Origin: an uncultured Pseudomonadota bacterium
Lineage (GTDB): Bacteria; Pseudomonadota; Gammaproteobacteria; Burkholderiales; Burkholderiaceae
DNA: 46,642 bases
Direction of reading: 5' to 3'
NCBI GenBank assembly: GCA_946480245.1
Contig: CAMLIZ010000011.1
Coordinates: 1-46,642 of the forward strand
Positions 37,224 to 46,642 of the stretch are shown piece after piece. A program made the translations under genes and the position numbers. A model generated the notes under the pieces. That model was not told the DNA's origin and searched no databases. It was given only the letters and a program-made list of their open reading frames with translations. Position 1 is the first letter of the stretch, and each line of letters opens with the position of its first letter.

Positions 37224-38435
37224 ATGAACGCCCCCGCCAACACCGCTTCCATGTCCGAGCTGCGAGCGCTGCAGCACGCACCGGCGCTGATGCCCGATCA
37301 GCGCGTCGACATGTTCTCGCTGCGCGGCTTCGAGCTGGCCCAGCGCATCGCCAAAGCCTTCGCCAACTCCGACGCCGTGCCCGCGCAGTTCCGCACGATG
37401 GTCGAGAAGAAGGGCAAGGGCGGTTCCACGTGGGTGGAGAACCCCTCGGCGCTCGGCAACTGCATCGTGGCCATCGAGGTGGCCCAGTCGGTCGGCATGT
37501 CGATCACCGCGGTGATGCAGCAGGCCAACGTGATCGAGGGCAAGCTGTCCTGGTCGGCCCAGTTCGTGATCGCCGCGATCAACGCCAGCGGCCGCTTCAC
37601 GCCGCTGCGGTTCCAGATGCGCAACCTGGGCCGCATCAAGGCGACCTACAAGGAAAAGCTCGGCTGGAACGACCAGAAGCGGGGCTTCGATTTCGCGGAG
37701 CGCACCGTCGAGGTGGACAACGTCGAGTGCGTGGCCTGGGCGCTGCCGAAGGGCGTGCAGGAGCCGAAGATCACGCCCGAGCTGATGCGCGAGTTCAAGG
37801 GCCAGCTGCTGGACCTGTACAAGGCCTACGGCCTGCCGGTGGTGGAGTCCGCGCCGGTGAGCATGAAGCTCGCCGTCGAGGAAGGCTGGTACGCCAAGTC
37901 GGGCTCGAAGTGGCAGACCGAGATGCGCGCGCTGATGCTGCAGTACCGGGCCGGCGCCTTCTTCGGCCGCATCCACGCGCCCGACATCGTGATGGGCATG
38001 GGCCACACCACCGAAGAGCGCATCGACATGACGACGGTCGACGTGGCACCGGACGGCACCGTGACCGCGGTCACCACGGATGAGCTGCGGCGAGCCGCCG
38101 GCGCCACGGCCCCGCCTCCTGCCGAAGTGGTCGAGGTGACCCAGAAGGGCGACGTCGATCACGGCGACCAGCACGCGCCCGAGCCCGAGCAGCAGGCCAG
38201 CGACAAGCCGCTTGCGTTCGACGCCGAGGCCTTCGCCGAGCGCCTGGAGAAGTGCGGCGACGTGGACACGCTCGACCTGATGGCCGACGAGATCCGCACG
38301 GTCGAGGGCGACATGGCCCAAACCCTCACCGACATCTACCGCCGCCGCCGTGAGCAGCTGCAGGCCACGCCTGCCGCCGCGCCCGCGCCGCAACCCCAGA
38401 GCCGGCGCCGCAGCGCGCCGCCCTCGATGGAGTGA
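37224..38435 (+). CDS. recT: RecT-family single-strand annealing protein
   Basis: A 403-residue protein with the RecT core in residues 30-270: ELAQRIAKAFANSDAVPAQFRTM, NCIVAIEVAQSVGMSITAVMQQANVIEGKLSWSAQFVIAAINASGRF, MLQYRAGAFFGRIHAPDIVMGM. It anneals complementary single strands during phage replication and marker rescue. The C-terminal 120 residues are a disordered Pro/Ala/Glu-rich tail with an Arg-rich end, perhaps a docking tail for SSB or the nuclease partner. GGAG precedes the ATG by 5-6 bases. The tail is longer than usual for RecT. Confidence 0.9.
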   Translation: MNAPANTASMSELRALQHAPALMPDQRVDMFSLRGFELAQRIAKAFANSDAVPAQFRTMVEKKGKGGSTWVENPSALGNCIVAIEVAQSVGMSITAVMQQANVIEGKLSWSAQFVIAAINASGRFTPLRFQMRNLGRIKATYKEKLGWNDQKRGFDFAERTVEVDNVECVAWALPKGVQEPKITPELMREFKGQLLDLYKAYGLPVVESAPVSMKLAVEEGWYAKSGSKWQTEMRALMLQYRAGAFFGRIHAPDIVMGMGHTTEERIDMTTVDVAPDGTVTAVTTDELRRAAGATAPPPAEVVEVTQKGDVDHGDQHAPEPEQQASDKPLAFDAEAFAERLEKCGDVDTLDLMADEIRTVEGDMAQTLTDIYRRRREQLQATPAAAPAPQPQSRRRSAPPSME

Positions 38436-38550: not shown

Positions 38551-39198
38551 ATGACCGAGAAGACCATCAACATGACCGCCGCCACCTTGGGCCGCGACCT
38601 CCTGCAGGCGCTGGTCCAGGAGGTGCGCCTGCTGGTGGCGCATGCCGATGATCACCTGGACGGCATGGACGACGTGCGCGGCGAGCCCGACCAGCGCGCG
38701 ATGGACCTGGGCCACGAGTACGACCCGAACAGCGACGGCAAGGGCATGGATGACAGCAACGTCGTCGATGCCGAATTCAAGGTGCTGGGCAACGAGCCGA
38801 CGCAGGAGCAGCTCGACGCCGCCTACCAAGCCGGCCGGAAGTCCGCCGAGAACGGCGAGCCGAAGGACGCTGCGCCGGTCGATCGGCACGAGCTCGTCGC
38901 GCGCTGGACGCAGGGCTGGCACGACTGGCACGACGAGAACGACAACCCGAGCGCCGCGACCGGTGACGGCGGCGCAGCGCCCGATGGCGAGCCACAGGAT
39001 GAGCTGTACGACCAAGCGGTGCAGCTGGTGGTCCGCTCCCGCCGCGCGTCGATCAGCAGCATCCAGCGCCATCTGCGCATCGGCTACAACCGCGCGGCTC
39101 GGCTGCTGGAGCAGATGGAGGCCGAGGGCATCGTCAGCGCGATGGCGCCGGACGGCTCCCGCAAGGTGCTGCGCAACGATGAGGAGGCCACGGCATGA
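38551..39198 (+). CDS. FtsK-gamma-like DNA-binding protein with RMF-like segment
   Basis: A 215-residue protein with three parts. Residues 1-70 are acidic and helical. Residues 80-135 ([23 protein letters not shown]...[21 protein letters not shown]) resemble the ribosome modulation factor family of phage accessory proteins. Residues 150-208 ([46 protein letters not shown]) are a clear winged-helix FtsK gamma domain, which in FtsK reads the KOPS sequence. There is no motor domain. It sits between recT and the SMC-like ATPase, so a DNA-reading role in phage recombination is likely. Confidence 0.75.
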
Positions 39199-40988
39199 AG
39201 CTGGCCGGCATCCACATCGAGAACTTCCTGGGCGTGCGCGCGGTGAACGTCTCGCTGCACAAGCGCGTGAACCTCTTCGCCGGCCGCAACGGCGCCGGCA
39301 AGTCGTCGATCCAGGAAGCGGTGCGCATGGCGCTCACCGCCGAGCCGGTGCGCGTCGAGCTGAAGAAGGAGTACGGCGCGCTGGTCGCGGACGGCGCCGA
39401 GCACGGCTTCGCCGACGTGGCGCTGGAGGATGGCCACGCCGCCATCACCCTGCCTCAGGGCAAGCAGACCAGCAGCCACACCGTGGCGCCTGCCCTGCCC
39501 TACGTGCTGGACGCGCAGCGCTTCGCGCGGCTGCCCGCGGCCGAGCGGCGCTCGTTCCTGTTCGGGCTGATGGGCCTGAAGACCGACGGCGCGGCCGTGA
39601 AGCAGCGCCTGCTGGACCGCGGCTGCGACGCCGCGAAGGTCGAGCGCGTGGTGCCGCTGCTGCGCGCCGGCTTCGAGACCGCGTGCAAGGAAGCCAAGGC
39701 GAAGGCCACTGAGGCCAAGGGCGCCTGGCGCGCGGTCACCGGCGAAACCTACGGCAGCGAGAAGGCGAAGACCTGGCGCGCCGAGGCGCCGGTCGCCGAC
39801 GCCGAGTTGGCGCGCCGCCTGGCCACCGAGCTGGACCACTGCAGCATCGCGCTGGAGCAGTGGCAGCAGGAGATCGGCAAGCTGCAGGCCGAGCAGCAGC
39901 GCCGGGCTGCGCTGAGCGCGAAGCTGGTGCCGCTGCAGGAGCGCGCCGCGAAGATCGCGCGGATCTCGGCCAAGCTCGGCGCCGACGAGGAGCAACTGGC
40001 CCAGTGGGAGGCCGATCTTGTGAAGACCGCGGCCGCCGCCGGCGCTGGCCCGCGAGTCGGGCTGGTCCACGATCTGGCCGCCTGCCTCTCAACGCTGCTG
40101 CGCTGTGTCGGCAACGAGGACGATGAAGGCCTCTTCGGACACGCGCCGGAGGTGGAGCGCTCGCGCGCTGCGATCGCGGCCTACGAGCGCGAGCACGGGC
40201 CGCTGAACGCCACCGGCGGCGACGAGAAGGCGCGGGCCCGGTTGCCCAACATCCAGCGCAGCCGAGACCTCCTGGCCAGCTCGGTCGCCAACGACAAGCG
40301 CGACCTCGAGGCGGCGCGCGCGGCGCTGGCCGAGGTGAAGGCCATCGAGCAGGAGCTGGCGGCCGAGTTCAATGCGGCCGGCCTGGACGAAGCACGGGCC
40401 CAGGCCGAGAAGCTGAAGGTGCAGCGCGCGGACCTGGTGCGCCAGCTCGACGCGCAGAAGGCGCTGAAGCAGCAGGCCGACAGCGCCGAGCGCAAGACCA
40501 AGGAAGCCGCGGCGCACGCGGCCGACGTGGCGGCCTGGGACGCGATCGGCGAGGCGCTGGCGCCCGGCGGCATCCCGGGCGAGATCCTGGCCGAGGCACT
40601 GGACCCGATCAACGAGCGGCTGATGCAGGCCTCGCTGGACACGGAATGGCCGCGCGTCGGCGTGGAGTCCGACATCAGCGTCACCGCCGGCGGCCGGCCC
40701 TACGCGCTGCTCAGCGAGTCCGAGAAGTGGCGCGCCGACGCGATGCTGGCCGAGGCGATCGCGCACCTGTCGGGCCTGAAGCTGCTGGTGCTGGACCGCT
40801 TCGACGTGCTCGACATGAAGGGCCGCGAGGACCTGCTGGCATGGCTCGACATCCTGGCCAGCGACGGCGAGATCGATACCGCCCTCATCTTCGGCACGCT
40901 CAAGGCGCTGCCCCCGCAACTGCCCGAGACCATCGCCGCCCACTGGGTCGAAAACGGCGTGGTGGGCCAACTCAAGGAAGCCGCATGA
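39195..40988 (+). CDS. SMC/RecF-like ATPase
   Basis: A 597-residue ABC-type ATPase. Walker A is GRNGAGKS at 30-37 in an N-terminal [38 protein letters not shown] pattern. A Walker B-like [11 protein letters not shown] lies near 530-540, with [23 protein letters not shown] as its signature region. The middle (about 200-450) is a helical region rich in Gln/Glu/Lys/Ala, typical coiled-coil. Phage versions take part in end-processing or SSB-coated DNA handling. It follows the FtsK-gamma-like gene and overlaps the exonuclease gene that it may serve. Confidence 0.8.
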
Positions 40989-41593
40989 ACACCGCCCTCT
41001 TCTACGATACCGAAACCACTGGCCTGCCGCTTTTCAACGAGCCGAGCGAGGATCCGCGACAGCCGCACATCGTGCAGCTCGGCGCTTGCCTGGTGGACCT
41101 GGACAGCCGCAAGACGCTGGCAACGCTCGACGTCATCGTAAAGCCTGCGGGCTGGGTGATCCCTGACGACATCGCGGCAATCCATGGCATCACCACCGAA
41201 CACGCGACGCGTGTGGGCGTGCCGGAGGAGCTGGCTGTCGAGCTTCTGATGGAGCTGGCACGAGGTCAGCTGCGGATCGCGCACAACGAGAGCTTCGATC
41301 AACGCATCGTGCGCATCGCCTGCAAGCGCTACTTCGACGAGTCCACGGTCGAGGAGTGGAAGGCCGGCACCGCGAAGTGCACCGCCTCGCTGGCGACGCC
41401 AATCATGAAGCTGCCGCCTACGGAGCGCATGCTGGCCGCTGGTCGCCGCCACCCGAAGACGCCCAATCTCGGCGAGGCATACCGCTTCTTCACCGGCCGC
41501 GAGCTCGAAGGCGCACACAGCGCGCTCGTCGACGTGCGCGCCTGTCGTGACGTGTTCTTTGCCATCACCGATGGTGTTCGGGAGGCCGCGTGA
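40985..41593 (+). CDS. DnaQ-like 3'-5' exonuclease (DEDDh)
   Basis: A 202-residue exonuclease with the DEDDh set: Asp8-Thr-Glu10 in FYDTETTGL, Asp in HNESFDQRI at about 104-105, and His/Asp in AHSALVDVRA at about 176-185. This is the proofreading-type fold. The start overlaps the ATPase stop (ATGA). With the preceding ATPase it may form an end-processing pair. Confidence 0.85.
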   Translation: MNTALFYDTETTGLPLFNEPSEDPRQPHIVQLGACLVDLDSRKTLATLDVIVKPAGWVIPDDIAAIHGITTEHATRVGVPEELAVELLMELARGQLRIAHNESFDQRIVRIACKRYFDESTVEEWKAGTAKCTASLATPIMKLPPTERMLAAGRRHPKTPNLGEAYRFFTGRELEGAHSALVDVRACRDVFFAITDGVREAA

Positions 41594-42198
41594 TGCGCGT
41601 CTACCTCAGCGGCCCGATGTCGGGCCTTTCCGAGAGCAACTTCCCGGCGTTCCACCAGTGGGCGGCACACCTGCGCGAGCAGGGCCACGAAGTCGTCAAT
41701 CCAGCCGAACTGCAGTACCCCGGCACGTGGGAACTGTGCCTACGCAACGACCTGCGCGAGCTGTGCACCTGCGACGCGATCGCGCTGATGCCGGGCTGGG
41801 AGAGCAGCAGGGGGGCGAACCTCGAGCTTCACGTCGCGCACCGGCTCGGCCTGCGCGTGATCCACCTGCCGCTGCAGTTCGACCTGGTGTCGCACCTGCG
41901 CCGGCAGATGGCCTTCAGCGAGCGCACCTTCGGCCCCGGCCGGCGCGTCGAAGGCGTCACCGACCACATCGCCAAGGAACTGCAGGAGGTGCGCGAGAGC
42001 GGCGGCGCACTGGCCGAGTGGGTCGACGTGATCATCCTCGGCCTCGACGGTGCTTGGCGCAGCGGCGCGACGCCCGAGCAGATCGTCGCCGCAATCGAAG
42101 CCAAGCAGACCAAGAACGAGGGTCGCAAATGGCCGGACTGGCGCGCCGCCGCCCCCGGCAAGGCCATCGAGCACATGCGGGACACGGAGGCGGCATGA
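41593..42198 (+). CDS. DUF4406-DUF550 fusion (nucleotide metabolism)
   Basis: A 201-residue two-domain protein. The N-terminus (MRVYLSGPMSGLSESNFPAFHQWAAHLREQGHEVVNPAEL) is the DUF4406 domain, related to nucleoside deoxyribosyltransferases. The C-terminus (FSERTFGPGRRVEGVTDHIAKELQEVRES...WVDVIILGLDGAWRSGATPEQIVAAIEAKQTKNEGRKWPDW) is DUF550, the dATP/dGTP pyrophosphohydrolase type with the MazG-like E..E..D motif. It may adjust the deoxynucleotide pool during replication. ATG 41593 shares a base with the previous stop. Confidence 0.8.
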   Translation: MRVYLSGPMSGLSESNFPAFHQWAAHLREQGHEVVNPAELQYPGTWELCLRNDLRELCTCDAIALMPGWESSRGANLELHVAHRLGLRVIHLPLQFDLVSHLRRQMAFSERTFGPGRRVEGVTDHIAKELQEVRESGGALAEWVDVIILGLDGAWRSGATPEQIVAAIEAKQTKNEGRKWPDWRAAAPGKAIEHMRDTEAA

Positions 42199-42389
42199 CG
42201 ATCGTCCCCATCGAGAAGATTCGCCGCGCCGTGATCGCTGCAGTGCACGGTGGCGCTGACCTGGCAACGGCTGTACATGCAGCCGCGGTTCAGTTCGGCC
42301 TCACTCCCGAGGCAGTGGTCGAGGCGCTTGAGCGCGAAGACCAAGCCGCCCGATCTCACATCACCAATTCACCACAGGAGCAAAGATGA
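42195..42389 (+). CDS. Small helical protein before the DGR (64 aa)
   Basis: A 64-residue protein (MTIVPIEKIRRAVIAAVHGGADLATAVHAAAVQFGLTPEAVVEALER...) with a helix-turn-helix-like arrangement of two helices. Its start overlaps the previous stop and its own stop overlaps the first DGR target. No family recognised. Confidence 0.6.
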   Translation: MTIVPIEKIRRAVIAAVHGGADLATAVHAAAVQFGLTPEAVVEALEREDQAARSHITNSPQEQR

Positions 42390-43003
42390 ACGCTCAGATC
42401 GAACAGCGGCTTGCCGCGCTTACCAGCCTGCAGCCCGGCACGCCCGTCGAAGGCGGCTTCTTCGCCGGCTACATCACGATGCCAGACGGCGTCTATGGCA
42501 TCGCCGTCGCGCCCAAGGCGACCGGAGAGATCAAGGGCCGCTGGCTGCCGACGTGGAAGGACGTGCCGGCTGCCCGCAGCTGCTTCGACTGCCGCGCCAA
42601 CACCCTCGCCATGGCCGAGGCCGGCAGCGAGCTCGCGCAACGCATCCTCGCGCTTGACATCAACGGCTGCAAGGACTGGGCCCTGCCGAGCCGCGATGTG
42701 CTGGAGGTGATCTACCGCAACCTGAAGCCCACGGCCGACAGCAACAGCTGCAGCTATCGCGACGGAGACAACCCGAGTTCCGTGCCGGTCGGCTATCCCT
42801 ACACCGAAGAGGCTCCGGCGCAGACGGCGGCCGAGGTCTTCAGGGCTGGCGGCTCAGAAGCGTTCGAGCCGCGTTGGTACTGGACCAGCACGCAGTACTC
42901 CGTCGACTCTGCCTGGATCCAGGACTTCAGCGGCGGCGGCCAGCACTACGACGACAAGCACGACGAGTTCCTCGCACGAGCCGTCCGCAGATTCAAGGCT
43001 TAG
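42386..43003 (+). CDS. DGR target protein 1 (variable C-type-lectin/DUF1566-like end)
   Basis: A 205-residue protein whose last 33 codons lie in variable repeat VR1. The N-terminal 60 residues (GGFFAGYITMPDGVYGIAVAPK...) look beta-rich. The middle has NTLAMAEAGSELAQRILALDINGCKDWALPSRDVLEVIYRNLKP, typical of DUF1566-like lectin folds. The end WYWTSTQYSVDSAWIQDFSGGG...FLARAVRRF is the DGR ligand-binding surface. There is no signal peptide or transmembrane helix. The ATG is supported by AGGAG 5 bases upstream. Second target at 43041-43493. Confidence 0.85.
   Translation: MNAQIEQRLAALTSLQPGTPVEGGFFAGYITMPDGVYGIAVAPKATGEIKGRWLPTWKDVPAARSCFDCRANTLAMAEAGSELAQRILALDINGCKDWALPSRDVLEVIYRNLKPTADSNSCSYRDGDNPSSVPVGYPYTEEAPAQTAAEVFRAGGSEAFEPRWYWTSTQYSVDSAWIQDFSGGGQHYDDKHDEFLARAVRRFKA
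42890..42989 (+). repeat. Variable repeat 1 (VR1) of the DGR
   Basis: A 100-bp copy of the template at 44050-44149. It differs at 12 positions, every one an A in the template (changed to G 8 times, C 3 times, T once). The 5' edge is clear because upstream bases fall out of register. The 3' edge is CCGTCCGCA, after which VR reads G-ATT and the template reads C-GTT. The coded peptide is TQYSVDSAWIQDFSGGGQHY and on to FLARAVR. Confidence 0.9.
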
Positions 43004-43040
43004 TCCTTCAGTTCTTTTCCAACCACCACCAGGAGAGCAG

Positions 43041-43493
43041 ATGAGCGAAATCACGCTGCAGCAGATCGAGGAGCAGCACAGCAAGCTGACCACGATGATC
43101 GCTGCGTTCAAGGCCCAGGCAGCCACCGAGATCTCGATCCCCGCCGGGACCATCAAGCTCCGCGATGGCGAGCGCTATGCCGGCATCGTCATCGAGAACG
43201 GCAAGCCTTCTCACCACCTGATCCTGCTGCCGGCCAAGCCCACCGGCCGCCTCGACTGGAAAGAGGCCATGGCCTGGGCTGAAGACGTAGACGGCGCGCT
43301 GCCGTCGCGATTCGAGGCAGCCCTGCTCTACGCGAATCTGCGCGACGAGTTCGACCAGAGCGCATACCACTGGACCAGCACGCAGTTCTCCGGCGACTAT
43401 GCCTGGATCCAGTACTTCGGCTGCGGCAACCAGGACTACGACGGCAAGAGCGGCGAGTTCCTCGCACGAGCCGTCCGCAGATTGACCATTTGA
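43041..43493 (+). CDS. DGR target protein 2 (variable C-type-lectin/DUF1566-like end)
   Basis: A 150-residue protein ending in VR2. The N-terminus (MSEITLQQIEEQHSKLTTMIAAFKAQ) is a predicted coiled coil, followed by beta-type ISIPAGTIKLRDGERYAGIVIENGKPSHHLILLPAKPTG. Then comes WKEAMAWAEDVDGALPSRFEAALLYANLRDEF, a DUF1566/lectin core. VR2 gives HWTSTQFSGDYAWIQYFGCGNQDY and then FLARAVRR. It shares no obvious N-terminal similarity with target 1, so two scaffolds display the same variable surface. AGGAGA stands 6 bases before the ATG. Confidence 0.85.
   Translation: MSEITLQQIEEQHSKLTTMIAAFKAQAATEISIPAGTIKLRDGERYAGIVIENGKPSHHLILLPAKPTGRLDWKEAMAWAEDVDGALPSRFEAALLYANLRDEFDQSAYHWTSTQFSGDYAWIQYFGCGNQDYDGKSGEFLARAVRRLTI
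43380..43479 (+). repeat. Variable repeat 2 (VR2) of the DGR
   Basis: A 100-bp copy of the template at 44050-44149 with 13 differences, all at template adenines (10 to G, 3 to T). Eight of these positions also differ in VR1, five are unique to VR2, and four are unique to VR1. The 10 bases upstream, TGGACCAGCA, are identical in VR1 and VR2 but not in the template, so they lie outside the exchanged segment. The 3' edge is the same as in VR1 (CAG-ATT). Confidence 0.9.
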
Positions 43494-43511
43494 TCCTTTG
43501 ATTCTTCAGCC

Positions 43512-43877
43512 ATGGCGCTGCACCACGACCTCCCGATCTACCGCACCGGCTCCGCGCTGCTCTCGCTCGCGCTGGACGTGCAGACGCAGATGCCGCGCGC
43601 GTTCAAGCGCTCGATCGGCCAGCGGATCCACGATCACTGCATCGAGATGTTGGACGCGATGGCCATGGCGAACGCCAGCCAGCGCGGCGATCGTCAGCGG
43701 TACATCGAGGAGCTGCTCAAGCTGCAGCGCACCGTCACCGTCTTGCTACGCGTGTCGTTCGACCGACGCATGGTCTCGCCGAAGCTGTGGGCACAAGCCA
43801 CGCAGTTGCTGGAGAGCATCGGCAGGCAGGGCGGCGGCTGGCTGAAGTCCGCACGCGAAAGGGCGCCTGCAGCATGA
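43512..43877 (+). CDS. avd: Avd, DGR accessory protein (four-helix bundle)
   Basis: A 121-residue protein of the 23S rRNA-IVP/Avd four-helix family. It has the pattern LPIYRTGSALLSLALDVQTQMPRAFKRSIGQRIHDHCIEML, LLKLQRTVTVLLRVSFDRRM, LLESIGRQGGGWLKSARER. The usual Avd length is about 120-130 residues. Avd pentamers bind the reverse transcriptase and the template RNA and are needed for mutagenic cDNA synthesis. It lies between the targets and the template/RT, and its stop overlaps an in-frame ATG for the RT frame at 43874. Confidence 0.85.
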   Translation: MALHHDLPIYRTGSALLSLALDVQTQMPRAFKRSIGQRIHDHCIEMLDAMAMANASQRGDRQRYIEELLKLQRTVTVLLRVSFDRRMVSPKLWAQATQLLESIGRQGGGWLKSARERAPAA

Positions 43878-44049
43878 AGGTCACGGCCTGCCATGCCCGT
43901 GCGCAACTTGAATCTGGTTGTGCCGCTGCCCCACAAGGGCACCGCCATGCGCACCACGGGAACCGCCCGACTGGTTCGGGTCTGCCCGGCGCAGTTTCCC
44001 CGCTGATCGGCGCAGGCCTTCGGCGGGGCGACGTCGATAGCACGACACG

Positions 44050-44149
44050 ACGCAGTACTCCGACGACTATGCCTGGATCCAGAACTTCAACAACGGCAAC
44101 CAGAACTACAACGACAAGAACAACGAGTTCCTCGCACGAGCCGTCCGCA
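44050..44149 (+). repeat. Template repeat (TR) of the DGR
   Basis: The 100-bp template that yields VR1 and VR2. It holds 33 adenines. The target-frame peptide would be TQYSDDYAWIQNFNNGNQNY... with eight AAC Asn codons, the hallmark design because AAC can mutate to many residues. The 284-base gap between avd and the conserved RT region (43878-44161) contains it. The TR is not followed by a target gene stop but runs directly into the RT frame. A 37-residue frame at 43893-44006 is not supported. Confidence 0.9.
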
Positions 44150-45247
44150 CGTTCAGCTTCCGCGTGCACCTTCGAGGCGCTGGTCAGCGCCTATCTAGAC
44201 TGCCGGCGCCACAAGAGCAACACCGACAGCGTACAGGTATTCGAACGCCACCTCGAGCGCAACCTCTGCGATCTCTTCGACGAACTGAAGGCCGGCACCT
44301 ACCGGCCCGGCCGCAGCATCTGCTTCGTCATCACCCACCCGAAGCCGCGCGAGGTGTGGGCCGCCGATTTTCGGGACCGCGTGGTCCACCACCTGCTGTA
44401 CAACCATATCGCGCCGCGGTTCCTTGCCAGCTTCGTCACCGACAGCTGCGCCTGCATCCCGGGGCGCGGCACGCTGTACGCCGCCAAGCGCCTTGAGCAC
44501 CAGGTGCGCAGCATCACGCAGAACTGGTCGCGGCCAGCACACTACCTGAAGTGCGACCTCGCCAACTTCTTCGTGTCGATCGACAAGCGCGTGCTTGGCG
44601 ATCAACTGCACGCGCGCATCGATGAGCCCTGGTGGCACTGCCTGACTGACACGGTGCTGTGGCACGACCCGCGCGGCGACGTGGAGGTGCGCTGCCCGCG
44701 CCACCTGCTCGCGCTGGTGCCACCCCACAAGAGCCTGTTCAACGCGCCCGCCCACTGCGGCCTGCCGATCGGCAATCTGTCGTCACAGTTCTTTGCCAAT
44801 GTCTACCTCGACGCGCTGGACCAGTTCGTGAAGCATCGCCTGCGTGCGCCGCACTACGTCCGCTATGTCGATGACTTCGTGCTGCTGCACGCATCTCCCC
44901 AGTGGCTCAATGCCGCCCTGGCCAGCATCGACGCCTTCCTTCCGTCGCGGCTCGGCGCGCGACTGAACCCGGCCAAGACGATCCTTCAGCCGGTGGATCG
45001 CGGCGTCGACTTCGTCGGCCAGGTCGTGCTGCCATGGAGACGCATCACGCGGCCGCGCACCGTGCGCACCGGCCTCGCGCGCGTGGAACGCACGCTCGAT
45101 GCCGATTTGCCTCGCACCGCGAACAGCTACTTCGGCCTGCTGCGGCAGGCATCGCACAGCCATCACGACCGGACACGTCTGGCGAACCTGCTGCGGCAGC
45201 GCGGGCGCGCGGTGAAGGCTGACCTCACCAAGATCTACGGGGCATGA
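44069..45247 (+). CDS. DGR reverse transcriptase
   Basis: A 392-residue group II/retron-like reverse transcriptase with DGR hallmarks. Motif 1 region: GTYRPGRSICFVITHPKPREVWAADFRDRVVHHLLYN. The IGNLSSQ motif (44768-44788) is the DGR form of motif 4. The catalytic YVDD is at 44864-44875 (RYVDDFVLL). The C-terminal thumb includes RLGARLNPAKTILQPVDRGVDFVGQVVLPW. The conserved region begins at 44165 (TFEALVSAYLDCRR). The start is unresolved: ATG 44069 lies inside the template, and an in-frame ATG at 43874 overlaps the avd stop, giving 457 residues. The RT copies the TR RNA into A-mutagenised cDNA. Confidence 0.9.
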   Translation: MPGSRTSTTATRTTTTRTTSSSHEPSARSASACTFEALVSAYLDCRRHKSNTDSVQVFERHLERNLCDLFDELKAGTYRPGRSICFVITHPKPREVWAADFRDRVVHHLLYNHIAPRFLASFVTDSCACIPGRGTLYAAKRLEHQVRSITQNWSRPAHYLKCDLANFFVSIDKRVLGDQLHARIDEPWWHCLTDTVLWHDPRGDVEVRCPRHLLALVPPHKSLFNAPAHCGLPIGNLSSQFFANVYLDALDQFVKHRLRAPHYVRYVDDFVLLHASPQWLNAALASIDAFLPSRLGARLNPAKTILQPVDRGVDFVGQVVLPWRRITRPRTVRTGLARVERTLDADLPRTANSYFGLLRQASHSHHDRTRLANLLRQRGRAVKADLTKIYGA

Positions 45248-45468
45248 TGGAAGCGATCGCAACCCTGCCGCCCTACCTCACCGATGCCGAGGTCGACGAG
45301 ATCTGCGCCGGCCTGAAGCAGAACGCGGCCAAAGTGCGCTACCTTCGCGACGTGCTGCGGCTGCCCGTTGAGCGCAAGCCCAATGGCCGGCCGCTGGTGC
45401 GCCGCACCGACCTGGCCAGGGCCCAAAACACCCGCCAGGGCGGCCCGAAGTGGAGCAAGCCGATATGA
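45244..45468 (+). CDS. DUF4224 family protein next to integrase
   Basis: A 74-residue protein (MEAIATLPPYLTDAEVDEICAGLKQNAAKVRYLRDVLRLPVERKPNGRPLVRRTDLA...) matching the DUF4224 pattern, with LTxxEvxxicxglkqxaakvryLrx. DUF4224 genes typically lie directly upstream of phage integrase genes; the role is likely regulatory or as excisionase-like partner (inference). ATG 45244 overlaps the RT stop (ATGA), and its own stop overlaps the integrase ATG. Confidence 0.8.
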   Translation: MMEAIATLPPYLTDAEVDEICAGLKQNAAKVRYLRDVLRLPVERKPNGRPLVRRTDLARAQNTRQGGPKWSKPI

Positions 45469-46502
45469 ACCGCCCGCGCGATCGCAAGAGTGCCGCCGGC
45501 CTGCTGCCGCGCATGGAGGCGCGGCTCTGGAAGGACGGCAAGACGATCACCTACCGCTACCACCCGGTGGGCGCCAAGCCGATCAACCTCGGCACCGACA
45601 AGATCGAGGCGATGCGCCGCGTGTTGGAGCTGAACGGCGACATCGACGACAGCGGCACCATCCGGCGTCTGTGGGGCCAGTACAAGGCCTCACCGGAATG
45701 GAAGGCCCTGAAGGACCGCACGCAGGCCGACTACGAGGCCTACAGCGAGCCGCTGCTGCAGGTGTTCGGCGACGAGCCCGCGGCCAGCATCACCGCGCCT
45801 GACGTGGCGCGCTACCTGCGCGTGGAGCGTGCCGAGGCGCCGGTGCGCGCGAACCGCGAGATCGCCCTGCTGGGCAACCTGATCGCGCTGGCGATCGAGC
45901 GCGGAGAGGCGACCGCGAATCCGTGCCGCGGCGGCCAGGTGAAGCGGAACAAGGAGCGGCCGCGCACGGTCGCGCCGACGCCGGACGAGATCGCCGCGCT
46001 GGTGAAGCACGCCGAGGCCAAGGGCGGCCAGTGGCGCGTGATCACGATGGCCGCGGAGTTCGCAGCGCTCGCAGGCAGCCGACAGGCCGAGTTCCTTTCG
46101 CTCGGCTGGGCGCAGTTCGGGACCGACGAGGTGCGCCTGCGCCGCGCCAAGCAGCGCAAGGGGGTGGAGAAGGTGGAGGCGGTGAAGGTGAGCTCGGCAT
46201 TGCTTGAGCTGCGCGGCCGGCTTCAGGCGATCGCGCGTGACCCGAAGGTCGGCACCGTCTTCCCGAACCGCCACGGCAACCCATACACCGCGGCCGGCTT
46301 CGCGGCCATGTGGGGCAAGCTGATGCGCGAAGCGATCGCCGAGAAGGTGATCACCAGGCGCTTCACCTTCCACGACTTGCGGGCCTACTACACCACCGCG
46401 CACAAGGAGCGCGAGGGCGCGCTGCCCGACCTGCATGCGTCGCCAACGACCACGGCCAAGGTGTACGAGCGGTCAGGCGTGGCCCGGCGCAAAGCGCTGT
46501 GA
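45465..46502 (+). CDS. int: Tyrosine recombinase integrase
   Basis: A 345-residue integrase. The N-terminal arm-binding region (about 1-60), with ITYRYHPVGAKPINLGTDKIEAMRRVLEL, and the core-binding helical domain (about 65-160) are followed by the catalytic domain. Its Arg206 is in AALAGSRQAEFLSLGW, His303-x-x-Arg306 in FTFHDLRAYYTT and nucleophile Tyr334 in TTTAKVYERSG. The spacing fits the family. It overlaps the DUF4224 stop (ATGA) and ends 91 bases from the tRNA-Lys 3' end. It would insert phage DNA into the tRNA gene. Confidence 0.93.
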   Translation: MNRPRDRKSAAGLLPRMEARLWKDGKTITYRYHPVGAKPINLGTDKIEAMRRVLELNGDIDDSGTIRRLWGQYKASPEWKALKDRTQADYEAYSEPLLQVFGDEPAASITAPDVARYLRVERAEAPVRANREIALLGNLIALAIERGEATANPCRGGQVKRNKERPRTVAPTPDEIAALVKHAEAKGGQWRVITMAAEFAALAGSRQAEFLSLGWAQFGTDEVRLRRAKQRKGVEKVEAVKVSSALLELRGRLQAIARDPKVGTVFPNRHGNPYTAAGFAAMWGKLMREAIAEKVITRRFTFHDLRAYYTTAHKEREGALPDLHASPTTTAKVYERSGVARRKAL

Positions 46503-46593: not shown

Positions 46594-46642
46594 TGGTGGG
46601 CCCTGTAGGATTCGAACCTACGACCAACGGATTAAGAGTCCG
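46594..46642 (-). tRNA. tRNA-Lys(CUU), 3' part (cut by window end); likely attB/attL site
   Basis: On the minus strand the window holds the anticodon arm with loop CTCTTAA (anticodon CUU, Lys), the T arm GTAGG-TTCGAAT-CCTAC, acceptor half AGGGCCC, discriminator A and CCA. The gene's 5' half lies beyond the window. Integrases commonly use the 3' end of tRNA genes, and here the int gene ends 91 bases away, so the crossover probably lies in this 3' half. A second copy of the 3' end should exist at the far prophage end. Confidence 0.85.

Follow-up and report, generated by a model that had tools for sequence, protein, structure and literature searches.

A structured RNA 5' of the template repeat, and its predicted helix with the template's 3' junction, in a two-target prophage diversity-generating retroelement

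Contig CAMLIZ010000011.1 of an uncultured Burkholderiaceae bacterium (below, the window, i.e., the whole 46.6-kb stretch analyzed, whose positions serve as coordinates throughout) carries at its end a diversity-generating retroelement (DGR) module with the order target gene 1, target gene 2, avd, template repeat (TR), reverse transcriptase (RT), excisionase-like open reading frame (ORF), tyrosine integrase, and partial tRNA. We consider it probable that in this DGR one TR diversifies two genes for proteins of the C-type lectin fold, and that synthesis of the complementary DNA (cDNA) is primed from a structured RNA situated 5' of the TR, by means of a covarying helix. The parts of the element are the following (VR, variable repeat; IMH, initiation of mutagenic homing):

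42386..43003, plus strand: target gene 1, 205 aa, Lcl_C / predicted C-type lectin fold (Pfam Lcl_C, 37.0 bits, cut-off 34.9; PHROG 4245)
42890..42989, plus strand: VR1, 12 differences from the TR, all at TR adenines
42999..43020, plus strand: period-8 array after VR1, CTTAGTCC TTCAGTTC TTTTCC, overlapping the stop codon of target gene 1 (read from the sequence)
43041..43493, plus strand: target gene 2, 150 aa, predicted C-type lectin fold (PHROG 4245, 2.8e-12; Lcl_C 23.4 bits, under the cut-off of 34.9)
43380..43479, plus strand: VR2, 13 differences from the TR, all at TR adenines
43489..43511, plus strand: period-8 array after VR2, TTTGATCC TTTGATTC TTCAGCC (read from the sequence)
43512..43877, plus strand: avd, accessory variability determinant (PHROG 3206 'Avd protein of DGR', 6.3e-23; Pfam bAvd, 39.5 bits, cut-off 40)
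43861..44052, plus strand: RT-15 structured RNA, 192 nt, 5' of the TR (Rfam RF03018, 173 bits, cut-off 82)
43908..43916, plus strand: 5' strand of the helix (TTG + AATCTG), putative primer strand (covariation, pairing counts)
44050..44149, plus strand: TR, 100 bp (TR/VR comparison)
44148..44156, plus strand: 3' strand of the predicted helix at the TR 3' junction (IMH*) (covariation, pairing counts)
44069..45247, core from 44189, plus strand: RT (RVT_1, 49.2 bits; PHROG 1423, 8.1e-112)

The original prediction described a complete DGR with all its parts present. The DGR is complete indeed, and the targets, VRs, avd, TR, and RT are where that prediction had placed them; however, the structured RNA was overlooked, together with its helix to the far end of the TR and the arrays after both VRs, and the layout departs from that of the BPP-1 prototype. 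The RT frame is open from 43787 to 45247. Its translation contains GLPIGNLSSQ and YVDD, in agreement with the IGNLSSQ and YVDD of the original prediction, motifs that are typical of DGR RTs. The enzyme is homologous to the BPP-1 brt product (32% identity). The further claim that the TR/VR differences are confined to template adenines was confirmed by an ungapped comparison over 100 bp, in which all differences of both VRs fell on the 33 TR adenines and none on the 67 C, G, or T positions; under an even spread over the 100 bases, the chance of such a pattern is 3.4e-7 for VR1 and 8.1e-8 for VR2. A control scan tolerating differences at C, G, or T returned the same two VRs only (scores 40 and 35 versus 84.4 and 83.1), and the scan revealed no further VRs on either the plus or the minus strand of the 46.6 kb. 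At its 3' junction the TR of the window reads CACGTT, while both VR1 and VR2 read CAGATT, which is an IMH/IMH* type of difference. The bias toward adenines recurs in 239 VRs of related loci, compared along fixed diagonals without scoring by base: within each 5-nt bin, the share of cells that differ is 23-60% for adenines (bins from -85 to -21, counted from the TR 3' junction) and no more than 2% for C, G, and T (bins from -70 to -31). Some template adenines of the relatives are seldom changed (-32, -31, and -22, in 11/199, 5/217, and 14/214 VRs; -34 is changed in 145/237); in the window these three fall in AAG and GAG codons, and possible causes are selection for structurally important residues or a locally acting influence on mutagenesis.

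Both targets are predicted by structure modeling to adopt the C-type lectin fold, with the VR at the C terminus. The mean predicted local distance difference test scores are 93.5 for target 1 and 95.0 for target 2, and the nearest solved structure for both is the Lcl C-terminal domain (PDB 8q4e; E 9.3e-4 and 3.8e-5, respectively). The two proteins are 49% identical over 61 C-terminal residues, and no similarity N-terminal of this stretch was reported by the comparison. The BPP-1 target likewise has a C-type lectin fold. As related loci we took the best 80 RT relatives from each of two collections (160, or 161 sequences with the window). VRs were counted wherever 2.3 kb or more of upstream sequence was available, which applied to 141 sequences, the window among them. 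Within the region scanned, two VRs per TR were found in 106 sequences, three in 24, one in 5, and none in 6; removal of near-duplicates left 111 sequences, with two VRs in 82, three in 23, one in 2, and none in 4. Since two or three VRs per TR are thus present in 130 of the 141 sequences (105 of the 111), one TR shared by two targets is the rule in this lineage. Among the six sequences without VRs there are four (L136, L090, L050, and L057) whose TR stands 1.0-1.2 kb ahead of the RT core and is accompanied by two or three VRs; the other two are L059 and L075. The original prediction held that two targets sharing one template are less usual; this is correct for DGRs at large, in which multiple VRs per TR make up about 13% in one cited survey and about a seventh in another, DiGReF (PMC3521204), but not for this lineage. 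Two targets were therefore rejected as the novelty of the element, being the norm in the clade and already on record elsewhere. In the BPP-1-type loci, of which 67 were examined with upstream flanks of up to 3 kb, one VR each was present in all 57 with a TR found. As to the 24 three-VR loci (e.g., L046, L035, and L153), in 20 of them one VR lies 3.4-9.7 kb upstream of the RT, and in the cases inspected such distant third VRs are mostly in another short lectin-like gene.

The RT-15 RNA occupies the stretch that separates avd from the TR. The avd-to-TR distance is 135-191 nt in 116 of the 120 loci with a TR (55, 224, 231, and 2886 nt in the others). In L136, L090, L050, and L057 the RT-15 RNA stands directly before the TR although the RT is about 1 kb away, so that this RNA goes with the TR and not with the RT gene. 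In a survey of phages, 13 of the 105 records with a match were hand-picked among the 40 matches listed. Nine of the 13 showed a 3' layout (0-34 nt from avd to TR, 159-344 nt from TR to RT core) and four a 5' layout (128-172 nt before the TR, 33-65 nt from TR to RT core); the latter are three records with RT-15, one of which, L162, has no annotated genes and had its avd end placed from the RT-15 position, and Bacteroides phage F2, for which Rfam gave no match. BalMu-1 carries an RT-14 RNA 3' of its TR. In phage F2 (L165, 2204-2333) the 128-nt gap between avd and TR contains ATCTG, with 65 nt to the RT core, which in a single sequence is not significant. A C4 antisense RNA lies near the DGR of L080 (12215-12301, minus strand).

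Within the RT-15 RNA, the hexamer AATCTG is conserved (exact in 80 of 101 distinct loci); GG follows it, the Rfam structure leaves it unpaired, and it is complementary to the CAGATT of the TR 3' junction. Pairs were counted in a fixed register, the junction being anchored by the motif T[CT]CG[CT] without use of complementarity; of the 120 loci with a TR, 118 had an avd-TR distance of 100-240 nt, 116 of these could be anchored (L129 and L077 were dropped), and 101 were distinct. The paired fractions at positions 1-10 are 1.00, 0.97, 0.90, 0.91, 0.87, 0.67, 0.89, 0.80, 0.63, and 0.31, and register slides of 1-3 lower the ten-position mean from 0.80 to 0.20-0.42. Position 7 is paired in 90 of the 101 loci by all four Watson-Crick types (GC 51, TA 21, CG 12, AT 6), and with partners from other loci in a fraction of 0.45; for positions 7-10 together the values are 0.658 and 0.515, respectively (0 of 3000 shuffles). 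At position 7, the RT tree has 15 branches on which both the RNA and the TR have changed, where 2.3 are expected, and 10 of these 15 are switches from pair to pair (G-U counted), as are 7 at position 9. In a scan of 1950 column-by-position pairs, the helix pair ranked first with z 9.2, the next reaching 5.5. The helix is also present in held-out loci: 10 bp in L136, 9 in L090, 9 in L050, and 8 in L057 (read by eye from the strands), where the RT core follows the TR by 1.0-1.2 kb, and 10 bp in L080 and 8 in L079, distant loci in which CAAATG stands for CAGATT and CATTTG for AATCTG. In the window, 8 of 9 positions pair (6 Watson-Crick, 2 G-U; read by eye). By these comparisons, a predicted covarying helix of about 9 bp joining the RT-15 RNA to the TR 3' junction is well supported; it would bring the expected start point of the cDNA next to the RNA core.

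The same strand could instead pair with the VR, i.e., with target DNA, and guide the choice of target. The helix core is common to the VR tails (positions 1-6 paired 0.848), and VR1 of the window extends the complementarity without the mismatch that the TR has at position 3. Where TR and VR differ, however, it is the TR that matches: TR-only versus VR-only pairing is 13:0, 14:5, 25:7, and 44:5 loci at positions 2-5 and 45:3, 58:7, and 56:11 loci at positions 7-9, and altogether the strand fits the TR better than the VR in 72 of 98 loci and worse in 8; at positions 10-12 the advantage of the TR is absent. We thus regard pairing with the VR in place of the TR as quite improbable. Several observations nevertheless weigh against pairing with the TR, or against the priming that we derive from it, and some of them speak for the VR. 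At position 6 the TR is not favored over the VR (22:31 loci), and position 7 of the VR is paired in 0.58 versus 0.44 in its own shuffles (z 4.6), which means that the VRs share some of the signal; when no register is imposed, the strand prefers its own VR tails over those of other loci with z 7.8, the value for the TR being 8.2. Positions 6 and 9 (z 4.2 and 4.0 in the scan of 1950 pairs) are within the phylogenetic background. In the window itself there is a C-C mismatch at position 3, and a single-sequence helix scan did not find the window helix and returned chance helices, in the window too. The register of the core was picked after AATCTG and CAGATT had been noticed, from which positions 7-9 and the held-out loci are free. 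A positive control on the BPP-1 clade was weak (z 1.9, 39/1000, 46 loci), and the register could not be fitted to L078. We infer cDNA priming from the 5' strand from pairing, polarity, and layout. In L078 the TR is flanked by GGTCTTCCAC just before 4757 and by its exact complement GTGGAAGACC just after 4848, possibly a clasp around the TR in another place.

According to the BPP-1 study (PMC12875486), cDNA synthesis in that phage starts within the TR 3' junction, an adenine inside the 3' spacer acting as the primer. The RT of the window is a distant homologue of the BPP-1 enzyme. The element might therefore be of the ordinary BPP-1 type, a 3' spacer overlapping the RT coding sequence serving as the primer and the 5' RNA only stabilizing the transcript or binding Avd. 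This seems unlikely to us, as the RT core of the window begins just 39 nt after the TR, the RNA and the helix persist in the four loci with the RT core 1.0-1.2 kb away, and the search for a Phage_DGR RNA (RF03022) was negative both for the window at the curated cut-off and, at E values up to 10, for 43500-44600. Moreover, no marked synonymous constraint was detected at the start of the RT core (codons 1-50, 150 nt; ratios 0.88-1.11 with 148 and then 128 non-redundant RTs), hence there is no sign of a hidden spacer there, and a 3' spacer concealed in the RT gene was rejected.

The helix could also be a regulatory structure of the mRNA, controlling, for example, translation of the RT, with no part in priming. 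Its 3' strand is close to the start of the RT core, and the RT frame, which was assigned by motif in the 105 of 120 loci that had the motif, crosses the TR in a conserved phase, the same relative to the target frame in 101 of the 105 loci with 29 different spacings, so the RNA and RT translation do overlap. The nearest in-frame ATG of the RT in the window, 44069, is inside the TR, and another, at 43874, overlaps the avd stop. No in-frame ATG, GTG, or TTG is found between the TR and the RT core in 56 of the 105 loci, 15 of which have a stop inside the TR, and in those loci translation seems to begin within the TR. A TR overlapping the end of an RT ORF is 'group 3' of the DiGReF survey (PMC3521204). 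The 5' region as an N-terminal extension of the RT was rejected, since the RT frame stops inside the TR in 20 of the 105 loci and the RNA is conserved. As for a purely regulatory helix, we doubt it: the helix and RT-15 are kept also in loci whose RT lies some 1 kb further downstream and has an in-frame ATG past the TR, and the strand meets the TR 3' junction in the polarity needed for extension into the TR.

Priming from the 5' RNA, the reading that we prefer, could proceed as follows. Folding of the transcript would place the AATCTG strand on the TR 3' end; this strand comes from the 5' side and its 3' end points into the TR, which is the polarity that a primer needs. The RT-Avd complex, bound to the 5' RNA, would start the cDNA at an internal 2'-OH beside the AATCTG strand and copy toward the TR 5' end, misreading adenines. 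The cDNA would then replace either VR, the array flanking the VR aiding recognition of the target.

In the 45 nt following the VRs, identity at lag 8 is 0.49-0.50 (99 distal, 112 proximal, and 28 remote VRs), compared to 0.27-0.29 in shuffled sequences and 0.22 after the TR; a three-copy score of at least 11/16 is reached after 47% of distal, 62% of proximal, and 64% of remote VRs, in at most 0.4% of shuffles, and in 0% of cases after the TR. Like the BPP-1 cruciform, which is found after the VR of the target only (PMC3240598), the array is on the target side only, hence a role in target recognition may be supposed, and we consider the period-8 array a candidate tag common to the targets of one template. 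Hairpins with 6 bp or more follow 85 of the 239 VRs with any loop and 7 with a GRNA loop, and, judging by the order of the hits, none follows VR1 or VR2 of the window; the BPP-1-like hairpin after the VRs was rejected as rare.

The original prediction placed the DGR inside a prophage, and this is borne out by the integrase, the partial tRNA, and the major head, tail sheath, and tail/baseplate proteins. Downstream of the RT are:

45244..45468, plus strand: excisionase-like ORF (PHROG 8896, E 0.0025)
45450..46502, plus strand: tyrosine integrase (PHROG 1, 3.3e-35; Phage_integrase, 36.6 bits)

Of ten further ORFs of the window tested, eight match phage families and two have no match; the matched families include, besides those just named, a helicase, a DNA methyltransferase, a RecT-like annealing protein, and an SbcC-like protein. 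The partial tRNA (46597-46642, minus strand; an Rfam match, with none by ARAGORN) adjoins the integrase and is perhaps the attachment site. The RecT-like single-strand annealing protein and the SbcC-like protein are encoded at 37224-38435 and 39195-40988, a few kb upstream of the DGR, and could help to place the cDNA. The ORF at 41590-42198 combines DUF4406 and dATP/dGTP pyrophosphohydrolase domains in one frame. A scan of viral_contigs with the TR pattern found no second copy of the element (0 matches).

The DGR of BPP-1 (mtd, avd, TR, spacer, brt) resembles that of the window in its homologous RT, its Avd, the adenine-only TR/VR differences (17 in BPP-1, all at A), and the IMH at the VR 3' end. 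In contrast to the window, where the RNA is 5' of the TR, avd of BPP-1 abuts the TR (0 nt) and the Phage_DGR RNA lies between the TR and brt; there is one target instead of two; and the VR is followed by a GC-rich hairpin with a GRNA loop instead of a period-8 array. Neither a structured 3' spacer nor a GC-rich GRNA hairpin after the VR was found in the window. The BPP-1 spacer AGGTGGTCA corresponds to AATCTGGTC of RT-15, and its AGGTGGT can pair with ATCACCT at the end of the BPP-1 TR; the priming site of BPP-1 is A56 of this spacer. Given the weakness of the BPP-1-clade test reported above, this parallel is only a lead. The DGRs of the DiGReF survey (PMC3521204) share multiple VRs (two in Pseudomonas fluorescens WH6) and the overlap of the TR with the RT ORF, whereas its accessible part is silent on a structured RNA 5' of the template and on a helix with the TR 3' end. 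Rfam RF03018, of which the RNA at 43861-44052 is a member, ends at the start of the TR, so that the helix with the TR 3' junction is outside the model, and its label names no DGR. The order of structured RNA, template, and RT, with the guide part 5' of the template, is also that of retrons (msr-msd-RT), which are primed from the 2'-OH of a guanosine in the retron RNA (PMC8867640). Avd, the TR/VR pairs, and adenine-only mutation are, in contrast, features of DGRs, and by this comparison the element appears retron-like in layout and is not filed as a retron.

In the literature covered, and in its accessible parts, the start of reverse transcription in DGRs is described for BPP-1 only. Among the matches listed by our searches, with most subscription papers outside their coverage, none describes the priming of a DGR by a 5' RNA; the TR/RT overlap and multiple VRs being already on record, we judge the 5' RNA with its helix to be new within this literature. 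The chances seem to us about even that DGR RNAs come in two opposite layouts and that in the second of them, found in a clade whose hosts are Pseudomonas, Burkholderiales, and others, a 5' RNA clasps the TR 3' end for a retron-like start, with an array in place of the cruciform, which may permit two or three targets. If the guide RNA is indeed on the opposite side of the template, then template and priming RNA can occur in either order, which would bear on the relation between DGRs and retrons, give a testable rule on which strand primes, and be relevant to the building of DGRs as mutagenesis tools.

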